Origin: Hyphomicrobiales bacterium
GTDB lineage: Bacteria > Pseudomonadota > Alphaproteobacteria > Rhizobiales > JAJFHB01
Length of the DNA: 64,000 nucleotides
Direction: 5' to 3'
NCBI GenBank assembly: GCA_021775755.1
Contig: JAJFHE010000062.1
Span: 1-64,000, forward strand
In this document: piece by piece, positions 57,414-62,096 of the stretch
How the letters are laid out: every line of letters starts with the position of its first letter
Position numbering within the stretch: position 1 is the stretch's first letter
Program-made: the position numbers and the translations under genes
The notes under the pieces: generated by a model
What the model was told of the DNA's origin: nothing
The model's database searches: none
What the model saw: only the letters and a program-made list of their open reading frames with translations

Positions 57414-58208
57414 TCAGTCCGGTACCCGGGCTGGCCAAATCGATACCAAGGCAGCCCAGATTCGGGAAATCGACAAGGTGCCAACCGACGGCAGTTTCAC
57501 GGCAAGGCTTTGAGGGTCTATACCGAGTGTGCCGCCCAGAATGTGCAGTTCAAGTCCTTCCTTCACCCCGATTCCAGCACCGATCACTCCGGACAGGGAT
57601 ATCTGCCAGCCGGTACCTGAAGGCGTTGTTTCCACGGCAAACCCTTCGCCCAGATAATCCTTGCCGACGGCAGTCGGCGGCAGTTCTGCTCCAAGTTCGG
57701 GTACGTTTCGCGCCACCCATGCAACGAAGGAGTTCGAATTCGGCCCGGGCCACACGGAGTAGGCGCCTCGGGCGCTGTGGGGATAGCGGGTGATTGCCGC
57801 TTCTATGCGTGGGATAAGTGCCGCCGCCGCGTCGCCGCGCACATCGTGAATGATGTCGGGCACATTTGAGTACCATCGCCCGTCGGTCGGGTAGGCGTTG
57901 CGTCTGACCGGGTTTCCCCAGCCCACCACCTCGTAGCGGGTGAAACTGTCGGCACCTTCCCGCTTGAGGACAATCCAGGTATGAACCGCGAACATGCCCT
58001 TCCAGCGGCCGGCGCGCGCGGCGTAGACCTGAATTATGGCCTCCCGTGCGGTGCGTGGGTCAGGCGCAATTCCGCTTGCCGACCAGTCGGCGGTCCGCCA
58101 GCTTGCCGGCCAGCCCTGTTGCGCATACCAGGCCGCGGTCGAGGCGACCGGTGCAACGATGCAAAGAAACACGGCAAGTGCCACAAACTTCAGCCTTTTC
58201 GTGATCAT
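57414..58208 (-). CDS. DUF3750 family protein with signal peptide
   Basis: A 264-residue protein with a signal-like N-terminus (about 7-28, LKFVALAVFLCIVAPVASTAAW) and the DUF3750 domain. That domain is recognised by IIQVYAARAGRWKGMFAVHTWIVLK, RYEVVGWGNPVR and YRVWPGPNSNSF-like YSVWPGPNSNSFVAW. The family is widespread in alphaproteobacteria with unknown function. ATG at 58208 is preferred, since it starts directly before the signal peptide. It is convergent with the response regulator gene. Confidence 0.83.
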   Translation of the reverse strand: MITKRLKFVALAVFLCIVAPVASTAAWYAQQGWPASWRTADWSASGIAPDPRTAREAIIQVYAARAGRWKGMFAVHTWIVLKREGADSFTRYEVVGWGNPVRRNAYPTDGRWYSNVPDIIHDVRGDAAAALIPRIEAAITRYPHSARGAYSVWPGPNSNSFVAWVARNVPELGAELPPTAVGKDYLGEGFAVETTPSGTGWQISLSGVIGAGIGVKEGLELHILGGTLGIDPQSLAVKLPSVGTLSISRIWAALVSIWPARVPD

Positions 58209-58349
58209 CGTCCTGGGTTCCGATACGGTCGGCCTGTTGTTTGCCGCAAAACGCGGGCAGACATGCCATGCGCCTTTCCAGTATATCTGAGTGCCATGAT
58301 CGTATGGCACAAAAGTGGCAATCTGTCTCTCGTGCCCGGGTTCCGTGTG

Positions 58350-59015
58350 TCACGCTTCGACATCGGCGCGTTCCCGCAAATCCGGTGAATTGTTGCGGAC
58401 ATTTCCGACCGCGCGTTTCACCGGATGGCTCGTCAGAACATTGTCGTTACAGGGAACCAGCAGGCCGGCGTCCGCGGATGCGAGCCAGGCGTCAACGCCG
58501 TCACGCTCCAGAACAACCGGCATTCGGGTGTGGATCTGGCGCATATAGTCGTTGGCATCGATTGTCAGGATCGTACAGTTCAGGAGCGGCTTGCCGCTTT
58601 CCGGATCGTCCCAGCGTTCCCAGAGGCCGGCAAAGGAGAGCGGCGTACCATCGGCGCGGTAGATGAAATAGGGCTGTTTCTCCGATCCTGAGCGTTTCCA
58701 CTCATAAAAACCACCAGAAGGAATGACACATCGGCGCTGCTTGAAGGCGGCGCGGAACATCGGCTTTTCCGCGGCGGTTTCGGCGCGGGCGTTGAAGGTT
58801 GACGGCAGGTCCTTGAGCGGCTTTTTCCACCAGGCGGGTATCAGTCCCCAGCGTGCTTCGCCCAACGTCAGCCCTTGTTCGCTGCGGCCCAGCATGTGCA
58901 CGGTCTGGGTTGGGGCGACATTGTAACTTGGACGGAGATTGAGGGCGGGACCGGTCAGATTGTAAAAGTCGAACACTTCCTCCCACGTATAGTCCTGTGT
59001 GAAGCGTCCGCACAT
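58350..59015 (-). CDS. SOS response-associated peptidase, YedK/HMCES family
   Basis: A 221-residue protein that forms a covalent crosslink with abasic sites in single-stranded DNA. Cys2 becomes N-terminal after Met removal, and the start was chosen so the protein reads MCGRFTQ. Other expected features are NARAETAAEKPMF, CVIPSGGFYEW and the HTRMPVVLERDG segment with the conserved histidine. It belongs to the DUF159/SRAP family. A single gene; the 142 bases to DUF3750 hold its 3' end only. Confidence 0.9.
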   Translation of the reverse strand: MCGRFTQDYTWEEVFDFYNLTGPALNLRPSYNVAPTQTVHMLGRSEQGLTLGEARWGLIPAWWKKPLKDLPSTFNARAETAAEKPMFRAAFKQRRCVIPSGGFYEWKRSGSEKQPYFIYRADGTPLSFAGLWERWDDPESGKPLLNCTILTIDANDYMRQIHTRMPVVLERDGVDAWLASADAGLLVPCNDNVLTSHPVKRAVGNVRNNSPDLRERADVEA

Positions 59016-59097
59016 AAACAAGTCTCCGGAAGTCCTGCGACAGGGGTAGCTCAGCCGGGCACAGTGTAACGGTGCGACACGCCCCGGCGCAATAAAA

Positions 59098-59125
59098 CCG
59101 GCCCGCAGAGTGATCTGCGGGCCGG
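59098..59125 (-). terminator. Terminator of secreted paralogue 1
   Basis: A perfect 12-base stem (59098-59109 with 59114-59125) around a 4-base loop, followed by TTTTATT on the minus strand. It lies 37 bases past the stop codon of the gene at 59162-59524. Confidence 0.85.
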
Positions 59126-59161: not shown

Positions 59162-59524
59162 TTACGAACCGTAAAACGTGAAGGTCGAGATGGTGCAGAC
59201 GTCTATGTCGAATTTCTCCGATTCGTCGCCATCGGCGAACTTGCCCTTGAAATCAAACTTGCACTCGCCGAAGCCGTCGTCGATGTCCAGCGTGATGGAG
59301 TGGCCGGGTTCCAGGACCTGCTCGCGCAGGTCGTCGGCGCCCCAATACTCCGCATTGGCGTTCGACACATAAAGGTGCGTCAGCGTCGTATTGGTATCGT
59401 TGATGATCTCGACGACGCGGTTGTAGTCATCGGCAAACGCCGCGCCGGTAAGGGCGGCTGTGGCAGTCGCTGCCAGAAGTGCGGCGGCGATAGTGTTGCG
59501 GGCGGTTTTGGTAATGTTCGACAT
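59162..59524 (-). CDS. Small secreted protein, paralogue 1 of four
   Basis: I do not know the function. The 120-residue precursor has a signal peptide (about 1-31, ending ALTGAAFA) and a mature domain of about 89 residues. Shared family features are YNRVVEIIND, a WGADDL motif, a VLEPGHS motif and GECKFDF with one cysteine, then DVCTIS with the second. The two cysteines probably form a disulfide. I recall similar short proteins in alphaproteobacteria being mislabelled as argininosuccinate lyase; that label is not credible. This copy is more acidic and more divergent than paralogues 2 and 3. GGAAATCAGG precedes the ATG. Confidence 0.8.
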   Translation of the reverse strand: MSNITKTARNTIAAALLAATATAALTGAAFADDYNRVVEIINDTNTTLTHLYVSNANAEYWGADDLREQVLEPGHSITLDIDDGFGECKFDFKGKFADGDESEKFDIDVCTISTFTFYGS

Positions 59525-59692
59525 CCTGATTTCCTTTCGTTTCCGGGGGCGGGTTCTGTTCCCGCTTTCGATAAACTCAAGATAGGCGCGTTTCCCGGCC
59601 TCGCTGGTGATCGACGTCACATCGCGAGAGGAAATTCGGAAATCCGCATAAGGTATTGAAACTAAATATTATAATCTCAAGCGAACGCGAAA

Positions 59693-59719
59693 AGGCCCGG
59701 AGCGAAACGCTCCGGGCCT
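59693..59719 (-). terminator. Terminator of secreted paralogue 2
   Basis: A perfect 12-base stem (59693-59704 with 59708-59719) around a 3-base loop, followed by TTTCG on the minus strand. It lies about 45 bases past the stop codon of the gene at 59765-60124. Confidence 0.75.
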
Positions 59720-59764
59720 GGAATTCCGCGACATGGCGGAGGCGCGTGGAACTCGAGTGCGAAC

Positions 59765-60124
59765 TCAGCGGAAAGTCACCGAGTACTCTGAGCACACGTT
59801 CACGTTATAGCGCTCCGACGTTGCACCGTTCTCGAACGTGGCGCGCAGGTCGAATTTGCAGTACCCGCTGTAGTCGTTGAAATCGATCGCCATCGACTGA
59901 CCGGGATGGAGCACATAGGAACCAAGGTGATCGTGGCCCCAGTCGTTGCGGCCCTTGTTGGACGCATGCAGGTACTCCAGTGCCATGCCGGTGTTGTTGA
60001 TGACTTCAACGACGCGGTTGTAGCCATCCGATGCCGATACCGACACGCTGATGGCGGTCGAGGCGGCGGCGGCCAGAAGTACTGCGACAACCGTGCGGCG
60101 GGCGGTTTTGCTGAAATTGGACAT
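59765..60124 (-). CDS. Small secreted protein, paralogue 2 of four
   Basis: A 119-residue precursor with a signal peptide (about 1-33, ending SVSVSASDG). The mature domain has YNRVVEVINNT, SNKGRNDWGHDHLGSYVL, PGQSMAIDFNDYSGYCKFDLRATF and VNVCSEYSVTF. It is closely related to paralogue 3 in both signal and mature parts. Two cysteines are conserved. It has its own terminator and a 186-base upstream region, so it can be transcribed alone. Function unknown; a small extracytoplasmic beta-rich binding or structural protein is plausible. Confidence 0.82.
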   Translation of the reverse strand: MSNFSKTARRTVVAVLLAAAASTAISVSVSASDGYNRVVEVINNTGMALEYLHASNKGRNDWGHDHLGSYVLHPGQSMAIDFNDYSGYCKFDLRATFENGATSERYNVNVCSEYSVTFR

Positions 60125-60254
60125 TGTCTTCTCCTTGTTTGCTCGGTTGGAGGCCGGCGGCGACCTCCGATGAGCCAGAAATAGCGCGGAACCGAACAGC
60201 CACCGGTGAAGTGGATCACAGGGCAGAAAAAAGCTTCCCGGTTCACAAAAAAAT

Positions 60255-60282
60255 ACGGCCCGGGGCAGAAGTCCCGGGCCGT
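60255..60282 (-). terminator. Terminator of secreted paralogue 3
   Basis: A 10-base perfect stem (60255-60264 with 60273-60282) with an 8-base loop, followed on the minus strand by ATTTTTTTG. It lies 28 bases past the stop codon of the gene at 60311-60670. The long T-run makes it the strongest terminator in the cluster. Confidence 0.9.
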
Positions 60283-60310
60283 TCACTGGGAGGTTGTTGG
60301 TGCTGCAGGC

Positions 60311-60670
60311 TTAGTAGAACGTCACTGTGTATTCGGCACAAACGTTCACGTCGCGAGCTTCGGCGGTGGCGCCGTTGGCATAGGTTGCGCGCATATCGAA
60401 GTGGCAGGCGCCGGTGTAATCGTCGAAATTGACATGCAGGGACTGGCCGGGGCGCAGAATGTACTGGCCGAGGTGGTCATGACCCCAGTCTTCGCGGTTG
60501 ACGTTTGAGGCGTTGAGATACTCGATGGTGACGCCGGAGTAGTTGATGATCTCAACGACGCGGTTGTGACCGTCGCTGGCGTATGCGGGTGCGGCGATAG
60601 AGGCCGTCGCGGCAGCGGCGACGAGGGCGGCGGCGATCGTGCGGCGGGTCATTTTTGCAATCTTGGTCAT
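60311..60670 (-). CDS. Small secreted protein, paralogue 3 of four
   Basis: A 119-residue precursor with a signal peptide (about 1-32, ending APAYASDG). The mature domain has HNRVVEIINYS, NREDWGHDHLGQYIL, PGQSLHVNFDDYTGACHFDMRATY and VNVCAEYTVTF. Both cysteines align with those of the other three copies. The DWGHDHLG and PGQS motifs match paralogue 2 exactly. It is the first of the three minus-strand copies at 59162-60670. Unknown function. Confidence 0.82.
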   Translation of the reverse strand: MTKIAKMTRRTIAAALVAAAATASIAAPAYASDGHNRVVEIINYSGVTIEYLNASNVNREDWGHDHLGQYILRPGQSLHVNFDDYTGACHFDMRATYANGATAEARDVNVCAEYTVTFY

Positions 60671-60877
60671 CGTTCTGTTTCCTCATTCCTGGTTGATTTT
60701 TGGGAGCTGCGCTCCGTGTTGCGATGACCTGAAGATATGCCGCCCGGCCAGTTGCACCCGTGACCCGCATCACAGGGAATGAAAAATGTCTGCGTACCGA
60801 AAATGCGTTCAGGCTTCCCGCCGGATGCAGCCCTTGATAGTGTGCGCAGCGCCTGGCGTTAACGGGGAGCTCATGTC

Positions 60878-61705
60878 TTGCAGACGGTAACCGCCCAACT
60901 GCCGGAATTTCTACGTCCGGTCTCCGCGAGCGGCCTCGTGCGCATCGGCGGCACGCACGATGGCGGATATGTCGTCAGCCGGGCAATGCTTGAGCGAACC
61001 GGGTTTCTTCTAAGCTTCGGGCTCGATCAAAGCTGGGCGTTCGAAGCGGCGGTCTGCGATTATCTCAAGGCAAGCCCGGCCGTTGACCACGAGTTTGTGT
61101 GTCACGCCTACGGTAAAGCCAGTTCGGCGCCGAAGCGCCCGTGGTGGGCGCGCAAGATCGCGCCCGTCATCCCCAATCCGCCGTTCGACAACCGCCACGC
61201 CACGCACTTCAGCCTGAATGTCGGGCGCGAGAGCGGCGGCGGCACGGTAACGCTTCGCGACGCCATGGACCGGGTGTCCGTTGAGGGGCCTGTGCTGCTG
61301 AAGATCGACATTGAGGGTTGGGAGTACAACGTCCTTAAAGACGTTTGCGACTTTGCAACGCGTGTGAGCGGCGTTGTCTTTGAACTGCACGGTCTGGGCG
61401 TTCTGGAAGACTATGCGTTAGTGCTTCTCCTGAAGCTCATGAGCGTGTTCGACGTGGTGCATGTCCACGCGAACAATCACGGCGGCATCGCGCCAAACGG
61501 CATGCCACAAGTGATCGAGGTGACCATGGTGCCGAAATCCGCCGCCGCAAGCACCGGTGCCGAGCCGGCCGAATACCCGCTGCCGGATCTGGATGCCCCG
61601 AATGATCCGGCAAAGCCCGACATCGCGCTTGAGTTTGCGATCCCGACTGTCGATGTGTTCAAGCAGCTCGACTCGCATCGGCTGCGGGAAATGAATGTGT
61701 TCTGA
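60878..61705 (+). CDS. FkbM-like SAM-dependent methyltransferase
   Basis: A 275-residue cytoplasmic protein. The N-terminus has LVRIGGTHDGGYVV and LLSFGLDQSWAFE, and the middle LLKIDIEGWEYNVL and VVFELHGLG; these are typical of FkbM-family methyltransferases. TTG at 60878 is the start, since GGGGAG lies eight bases before it. An ATG at 60873 is out of frame and opens only a five-codon peptide. The C-terminal 60 residues are proline-rich and atypical. It sits inside the cluster of secreted paralogues, with paralogue 4 converging on its end, but no functional link is proven. Confidence 0.78.
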   Translation: MQTVTAQLPEFLRPVSASGLVRIGGTHDGGYVVSRAMLERTGFLLSFGLDQSWAFEAAVCDYLKASPAVDHEFVCHAYGKASSAPKRPWWARKIAPVIPNPPFDNRHATHFSLNVGRESGGGTVTLRDAMDRVSVEGPVLLKIDIEGWEYNVLKDVCDFATRVSGVVFELHGLGVLEDYALVLLLKLMSVFDVVHVHANNHGGIAPNGMPQVIEVTMVPKSAAASTGAEPAEYPLPDLDAPNDPAKPDIALEFAIPTVDVFKQLDSHRLREMNVF

Positions 61706-61721
61706 ATCGCGATCCGCACTT

Positions 61722-62096
61722 TCAGTCAAAGAATCGGAAGACGGCCACCTCGCAGACATTGACGAGGTACTTTTCGACAACGTCTTCCTGGCCGTCATTG
61801 CTTGGAAACACACCGCGGAAATCGAACATGCAGTATCCGCTTGTGTCGTCGAGATTGATGGAGAGGGATTCGCCCGGCGCCAGGGTTCTGTGGCCGAGAT
61901 GATCGCGGCCCCAGACCGTGCGCCCCACATGCGAAGCGAACAGACGTAGCAGCGGCTCGGAGGTGTTGTTGACCACCTGCACCCAGCGGTCATAGCTGTC
62001 GGCGCGTGCCGTACCGGCGGTCACGGCCAGCGCCGCGGCAACTACTGCTGCGGCAAGGGCCGTGCGGCATTGAAGGCATGAGCGAATAATCAGCAT
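61722..62096 (-). CDS. Small secreted protein, paralogue 4 of four
   Basis: A 124-residue precursor and the most divergent copy. A signal peptide (about 1-32, ending TAGTARADS) is followed by YDRWVQVVNNT, HVGRTVWGRDHLGHRTL and APGESLSINLDDTSGYCMFDFRGVF, then VNVCEVAVFRF. Both mature cysteines align with paralogues 1 to 3. An ATG at 62132 would add 12 residues; 62096 gives a more normal signal peptide. It is separated from the other three by the methyltransferase gene. Confidence 0.75.
   Translation of the reverse strand: MLIIRSCLQCRTALAAAVVAAALAVTAGTARADSYDRWVQVVNNTSEPLLRLFASHVGRTVWGRDHLGHRTLAPGESLSINLDDTSGYCMFDFRGVFPSNDGQEDVVEKYLVNVCEVAVFRFFD

Follow-up and report, generated by a model that had tools for sequence, protein, structure and literature searches.

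The usual partner of bacterial trypsin-like protease domains is PDZ: as given in the part of a 2008 survey of prokaryotic serine proteases that was available to us, 63 Tryp-PDZ and 49 Tryp-PDZ-PDZ proteins were counted among 133 multi-domain ones (PMC2605481). Among proteins built of small beta-sandwiches, AlgF is reported to mediate protein-protein interactions in the cell envelope, and the ectodomains of PepT1 and PepT2 are reported to bind trypsin (both from the accessible part of PMC10641220). Here, we analysed four genes (g1 to g4), located between positions 59162 and 62096 of a window of 64,000 nucleotides from a Hyphomicrobiales bacterium (assembly GCA_021775755.1, contig JAJFHE010000062.1, positions 1 to 64,000). 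We tentatively propose that these genes arose by local duplication, as part of an expansion, specific to the lineage, of a so far undescribed domain (about 85 residues), and that this domain is a ligand-binding adaptor module of the cell envelope, probably binding proteins; taken as a whole, this is the best explanation that we can offer, and we hold it with some doubt. Small exported beta-sandwich modules are a kind of protein already known in general. What is new here is the presence of the domain in one, two, three or five copies before trypsin-like proteases. In the part of the 2008 survey seen, the domain is not among the architectures; partner domains were named there by Pfam, so that this domain could not have been seen (PMC2605481). 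Neither the paper titles listed in our literature searches nor the family libraries searched gave an account of the family, of its fusion to trypsin-like proteases or of its expansion, the family having no searchable name.

The relatedness of the four products greatly exceeds chance: a search with g3 retrieved g2 at E = 2.4e-46, g1 at E = 3.2e-29 and g4 at E = 1.0e-18. The initial annotation, made from the sequence without database searches, had described four paralogous two-cysteine precursors with signal peptides. The gene calls, the E values and the two conserved cysteines bear out this description, and the N-termini do look like signal peptides by eye. Among the motifs listed in that annotation for the mature proteins, WGxDxL, PGxS, GxCxFD and (D/N)VC are present in g1-g4; the first one was slightly misread, the actual reading being NRVVE(I/V)IN in g1-g3 and DRWVQVVN in g4, and (D/N)VC lies 8-10 residues short of the C-terminus instead of at the end. 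We then aligned 75 members of the family. R37, N43, W62, D84, G87, C89, F91 and C111 are conserved without exception, and the G85 column is nearly invariant. In a broader set of 49 domains, the asparagine and both cysteines remain invariant, while the tryptophan and the aspartate are conserved in at least 90%. All of these family features (invariant asparagine, two cysteines, conserved tryptophan and aspartate) are found in g1-g4, as is, judged by eye, the export signal. In addition, 7 of the 75 aligned single-domain members display a lipobox-like N-terminus (first 40 residues examined; that of L157 may be due to chance), which places at least some members at a membrane of the cell envelope. 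The proteins are therefore better called exported than secreted, the term first used for them.

No model of Pfam (best E = 0.0029) or NCBIfam (best E = 0.0049) fits any of the 75 members, in line with the initial remark that the family has no assigned function. The weak matches point to various unrelated families; the Pfam family PPC, for example, gives a weak match in 4 of the 75 members (best E = 0.0097). In the absence of a family model, the domain is invisible to current annotation. Searches against PHROGs returned weak matches at chance level only, and a sequence search of the PDB returned a single match that is not credible (E = 1.4). No PADLOC model matches g1-g4, and a defence role was rejected on this basis.

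To describe the spread of the family, we counted positive genomes at E <= 1e-5, the window's own genome included. The family was present in 45 of the 385 sampled genomes of the class and in 48 of the 398 of the phylum, i.e. about one genome out of eight in each case, and in 69 of the 297 sampled genomes of the order. These counts are lower bounds, since scoring was limited to the best candidates of each genome. Among an initial set of 61 relatives, 12 match at E <= 0.001. The relatives, among the 80 loci listed, belong to Rhodobacterales, Microvirga, Devosia, Kaistia, Aurantimonas, sphingomonads, Alcaligenaceae and Lysobacteraceae. No family match was found in phages, none of the 43 pattern stretches in viral contigs was confirmed as a relative, and single-domain queries match two plasmid records only; a mobile or phage origin was thus rejected.

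The window's genome (G000) contains eight matches at E < 1e-3 and a ninth relative, very divergent and detected by profile, at C21:31264-31587 (L045), which sits on an extremely long branch of the tree. The set thus extends beyond the four genes described initially: the genome total is 8-9 copies, a natural set for testing specialisation. In the order survey, which counts tandem domains within one gene singly, 15 of the 69 positive genomes have at least three matches: 12 genomes of the genus g22, G821, the window's genome (8 matches) and G002 (5 matches). G002 belongs to a different genus of the same family as the window's genome; in that family, G001 and G003 have no match. The phylogeny was inferred as an unrooted tree of 52 domains and 88 columns, whose bootstrap had not settled; of the 80 named loci it includes 27, and of the five G002 copies four. 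Seven copies of the window's genome (g1-g4 and those on C29, C33 and C77) and the four G002 copies lie behind one supported branch (99/95). Within this group, g2 and g3 are sisters (100/94) and the pair joins a G002 copy (95/85). Another pair of sisters is formed by the C29 and C33 copies (99/82), placed with weak support beside another G002 copy (89/46), whereas g4 joins G002 copies without firm support (83/85). The C26 copy falls in another subfamily (100/96 with G023b). Moreover, in G002, two family genes adjoin homologues of the genes at 58350-59021 and 57414-58310 of the window (60% identity for the latter), and this synteny indicates a cluster locus older than the separation of the two genera. 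The shared locus and the grouping of copies from both genomes thus show that the expansion is old. The pairwise non-synonymous divergence (dN) ranges from 0.31 to 0.62 and the synonymous divergence (dS) from 1.34 to 2.98; although these ratios are rough, dN/dS is below 1 and amino-acid change is therefore selected against. Divergence between the copies had been taken initially as a sign of functional specialisation: old paralogues under selection fit this idea and do not prove it.

Beyond the window, the domain was found in front of trypsin-like proteases, which is the most informative finding of this analysis and one that the initial annotation had no means of making. Five domains in L025 and two in L075 are followed by Trypsin_2 (Pfam, E = 9.7e-30 and 2.9e-27, respectively); Pfam was run on these two fused proteins, and the fused class as a whole is defined by a protease sequence motif. 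Open reading frames (ORFs) with this motif carry five domains in L191, L194 and L195, three in L192 and two in L186 and L187, and a protein of Roseomonas marmotae annotated as trypsin-like (WP_207448315.1, L204) carries one. A near-full-length match to the L025 protein (residue <= 43 to 782) was detected in 12 out of 12 genomes of the genus g22. Along the match to the five-domain protease, two TGA codons are read through in G958 (C323:21304-23643) and one in G942 (C25:12161-14431); the domain-bearing frames there (743 and 752 aa) are open, and the TGA stops may lie at the match ends. In the two-domain proteins of L186 (7548-8963, plus strand) and L187 (1442-2845, minus strand), the His region is kept and the GNSGG motif is lost, as judged by eye, and the protease part looks inactive. 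Tandems without a protease also occur, with three domains in L076 and two in L083, and in L078 and L080 the domain is fused to other N-terminal parts. In L078 (G384), it follows two copies of another cysteine-containing beta-rich module without a Pfam match; in L172 (Sphingomonas sp. Leaf407), it follows, by eye, one copy of a cysteine-containing beta-rich module.

With the L025 fusion as query, 817 plasmid records matched. Among the best 12 of these 817 matches, nine cover the protease part only, two from Roseomonas start at residue 513 and one from Thioclava at residue 530. The first listed Roseomonas match includes the domain and the Thioclava match does not: the protein concerned (Thioclava sp. 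FTW29, L205:2377-3753, WP_330629529.1) is a related protease of the S1C type that gives no domain match and carries another N-terminal module instead. In the window's genome, the catalytic part of the fused protease finds six matches; three of them, read over their full length, lack the domain and are ordinary HtrA-like proteins. The S1C/HtrA proteases (PF13365) are thus linked to the family by fusions in several alphaproteobacterial lineages, whereas g1-g4 differ from them in having no trypsin-like catalytic domain (no protease domain in the four window proteins by Pfam search); only the fused relatives have one. These fusions turn an orphan domain into a testable question, namely how exported trypsin-like proteases without PDZ choose their targets.

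The structure prediction and fold search proposed in the initial annotation gave a confident model and a fold resemblance without significant match. The AlphaFold2 model of g3, built with 75 sequences, comprises six strands with a block-mean predicted local distance difference test score (pLDDT) of 91-98 from residue 41 (residues 41-119), and the mature g2 domain alone reached a mean pLDDT of 92.5 and a predicted template modelling score of 0.81. The domain is mostly above pLDDT 90 in both models, so that a six-stranded beta-sandwich is predicted with confidence. The two invariant cysteines (Cys89 and Cys111 in g3) flank the hairpin formed by strands 90-97 and 102-109 in the model, which makes one disulfide across this hairpin likely. 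Foldseek found nothing at E < 1e-3 in the PDB or in viral proteins. Its best probability (1.00, with E = 0.032 and a TM-score of 0.61 for the model) was obtained for PDB 2mca, a protein of Eubacterium rectale that also aligns with Z 6.7-7.1; the identity is 14-16% and the title of this uncharacterised entry states no function. With VIA-align, the best Z was 7.6 for VHL, with HGSNAT, PepT2, AlgF, 2mca and others close behind.

We compared the family with these neighbours individually. The VHL beta domain (PF01847) has the top Z in the comparisons of both models (7.6 and 7.5), with a root mean square deviation (rmsd) of 2.5-2.6 over 73-74 residues and a Z below the level separating chance, and its N-terminal strand and L-x-PG turn are similar by eye. 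Despite this resemblance, membership was rejected on profile comparison: the hhalign probability is <= 1.7% against three bacterial VHL sequences, and the Pfam matches obtained for the 75 members up to E = 0.05 do not include PF01847. The case of AlgF (PF11182) is similar. AlgF is also an envelope protein made of small beta-sandwiches, and its N-domain (6czt) aligns with Z 6.8 and an rmsd of 1.9 over 66 residues; however, it has two such domains where the window proteins have one each, its partners are alginate proteins, and the hhalign probability against 15 AlgF sequences is 0.2-0.3%, on which membership was again rejected. No PF11182 match was found in the window's genome or among the Pfam matches of family members. 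The extracellular domains of PepT1 and PepT2 are beta-sandwiches as well (Z 5.6 and 7.0), but they are parts of mammalian transporters, with 12% identity for PepT2.

A domain that occurs alone, in tandem and before a protease, and several of whose fold neighbours are binding domains, is most economically read as a protein-binding adaptor, a role that we put forward with moderate confidence. The relatives joined to proteases likewise suggest binding pieces in the cell envelope. The precursor would be exported by its N-terminal signal peptide, and the mature chain would fold outside the cytoplasm into the small six-stranded beta-sandwich, its hairpin probably stapled by the disulfide. The module would then most likely act in the cell envelope as an adaptor for a ligand, probably a protein. 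Single-domain copies would act alone, either soluble or, in some relatives, lipid-anchored, and in other bacteria the one to five copies before an S1C-type protease would keep the protease at its target or bring the target to it; the targets recognised would then differ between paralogues. A broader reading, which we consider doubtful, joins both forms in one proteobacterial envelope protein-interaction domain that would have evolved alongside trypsin-like proteases. Acting in cis, the tandem arrays would replace PDZ domains as a neck that holds the substrate, and the free paralogues would serve in trans as exchangeable adaptors that send particular envelope proteins to proteolysis or keep them from it.

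Several observations weigh against the adaptor reading. All Z values are below 8 and Foldseek gave no E value under 1e-3, so the fold similarity may reflect a common arrangement only, as VIA-align itself notes for such Z values, and the profile comparisons revealed no homology to VHL or AlgF. The fold lists also contain cytolysin domains, expansins, pilus ushers, Fn3 domains of titin and designed proteins, and such sandwiches bind, according to the part of PMC10641220 seen, proteins, cholesterol, carbohydrates or hormones. In the window's genome, none of the six protease matches overlaps any listed domain match. The dS values are near saturation, and no neighbouring gene is common to all lineages. 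Finally, the acidic loop of the family, in its strict form DDxxGxC, is present in 95 out of 169 distinct single-domain sequences and in none of the 30 distinct protease-fused domains or of the 5 tandem-only ones (108, 0 and 0 with the looser [DN][DN]xxxxC), a contrast between sequences related by descent and therefore not between independent events. Free and fused copies may thus not share the same ligand.

This loop is also what could make the family calcium-binding, or binding to another metal, in the envelope, with a putative site formed by DDxxGxC and the WxxD motif. The invariance of D84 and G87 and the near-invariance of the G85 column in the 75 members are in favour of such a site, as is the strict loop of g1, g3 and g4 (g2 reads ND). 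Its lack in 74 of the 169 single-domain sequences and in all fused and tandem-only domains indicates, however, that a metal site is not the basic function of the family, and we regard this explanation as improbable. Inhibition of periplasmic hydrolases such as proteases and lysozymes appears just as improbable. Known lysozyme inhibitors share the profile of the window proteins, being small, exported, sometimes lipidated and multi-copy, with two cysteines, and the position of the fused domains, N-terminal to the protease domain, would suit inhibitory prodomains, the free copies then inhibiting foreign or own enzymes. Nevertheless, no inhibitor family, those of lysozyme inhibitors included, appears among the Pfam and NCBIfam matches of the 75 members up to E = 0.05, five tandem copies would be unusual for a prodomain, and the domains are retained in L186 and L187 despite the loss (by eye) of the motif of the catalytic serine.

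The family might also bind polysaccharides or another cell-surface polymer, with a structural role or as a tether of enzymes to the wall, which seems unlikely to us, if less so than the two preceding explanations. Beta-sandwich folds often bind glycans. The N-terminus of the Thioclava protease WP_330629529.1, which has no domain match, presumably resembles a peptidoglycan-binding module, and the N-terminal position could then be a tethering position. Set against this, we recognised no polysaccharide genes by eye among the neighbours shared within groups (most clusters were not searched against a family library), and AlgF, a fold neighbour, is reported in the accessible part of PMC10641220 not to bind alginate in vitro.

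The features of the locus are given in Table 1. Individual terminators had been announced for copies 1-3 and are supported by hairpins, clear for g1 and g3 and weakest for g2, whose hairpin with a short T tail escapes the rule of the terminator scan; none is visible 3' of g4. The scan found five terminators in total, a number that does not exceed chance expectation (shuffle mean 3.2, sd 2.0), so that the argument depends on how good the stems are and where they lie. The initial suggestion of separate dosage or regulation of the copies has these hairpins alone in its favour and is not shown by them. A consensus scan for sigma-70-like promoters gave none (shuffle mean 1.1).

Table 1. Position of the family genes, hairpins and neighbouring genes in the window
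Feature	Position	Strand	Details
g1, family member	59162-59524	minus	120 aa precursor from ATG
g2, family member, sister of g3	59765-60124	minus	119 aa precursor from ATG
g3, family member	60311-60670	minus	119 aa precursor from ATG
g4, family member	61722-62096	minus	124 aa precursor from ATG
Terminator-like hairpin 3' of g1	59098-59125	minus	from scan; T tail; -27.1 kcal/mol
Hairpin 3' of g2	59693-59719	minus	12 pairs, TTTT tail; -26.8 kcal/mol over 41-base stretch
Terminator-like hairpin 3' of g3	60255-60282	minus	from scan; T tail; -23.4 kcal/mol
FkbM-type methyltransferase gene	60878-61705	plus	between g3 and g4, on the opposite strand
SRAP-type gene, marker of the conserved locus	58350-59021	minus	homologue (62% identity) next to two family genes in L035

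The FkbM-type gene splits the group as initially described. It passes the cut-off of Pfam PF05050 (26.6 bits vs. 22.7) and remains below that of NCBIfam TIGR01444 (30.2 vs. 37.7). No FkbM match was found in the 3.4-kb contig of G002 (L035), which starts 147 bases before its first family gene and so does not demonstrate that the gene is missing there, and no separate link between this gene and the family was found. The product of 58350-59021, which we take from its sequence to be of the SRAP type, is a syntenic neighbour and does not belong to the family.

We also clustered the ORFs around the 80 loci, with a crude caller that misses small genes and often prefers antisense ORFs; the family ORFs that were kept form three clusters of 41, 18 and 6. 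A gene encoding a LuxR-type response regulator is divergent from the family gene, about 35-190 bases apart, in seven loci (L120, L122, L143, L148, L152 and L155 in betaproteobacteria and L165, from Rudaea, in gammaproteobacteria). The gene of a 7TMR-DISM sensor kinase lies beyond the regulator in six of these seven loci, the stretch of L122 ending too early for a kinase; the Pfam search covered the L143 and L165 pairs. It is possible that the family gene is signal-controlled in these beta- and gammaproteobacteria, and family gene and regulator may have moved together. This regulator, of a kind that senses an outside signal, is the only clue given by gene context; it concerns a minor fraction of the family and bears on regulation more than on mechanism. 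Three more clusters cross groups, with 2-3 loci each, one of them antisense to the family gene. Otherwise, synteny is found mainly within groups, i.e. in Rhodobacterales, Microvirga, Devosia, Kaistia and Lysobacteraceae-type gammaproteobacteria. In 21 loci of Rhodobacterales (L094 and 20 others), the family gene is adjoined, with no sign of a functional link, by a mutase-like gene whose product presumably resembles methyl- or ethylmalonyl-CoA mutase, and in four Lysobacteraceae-type gammaproteobacterial loci the neighbour is tRNA-synthetase-like.

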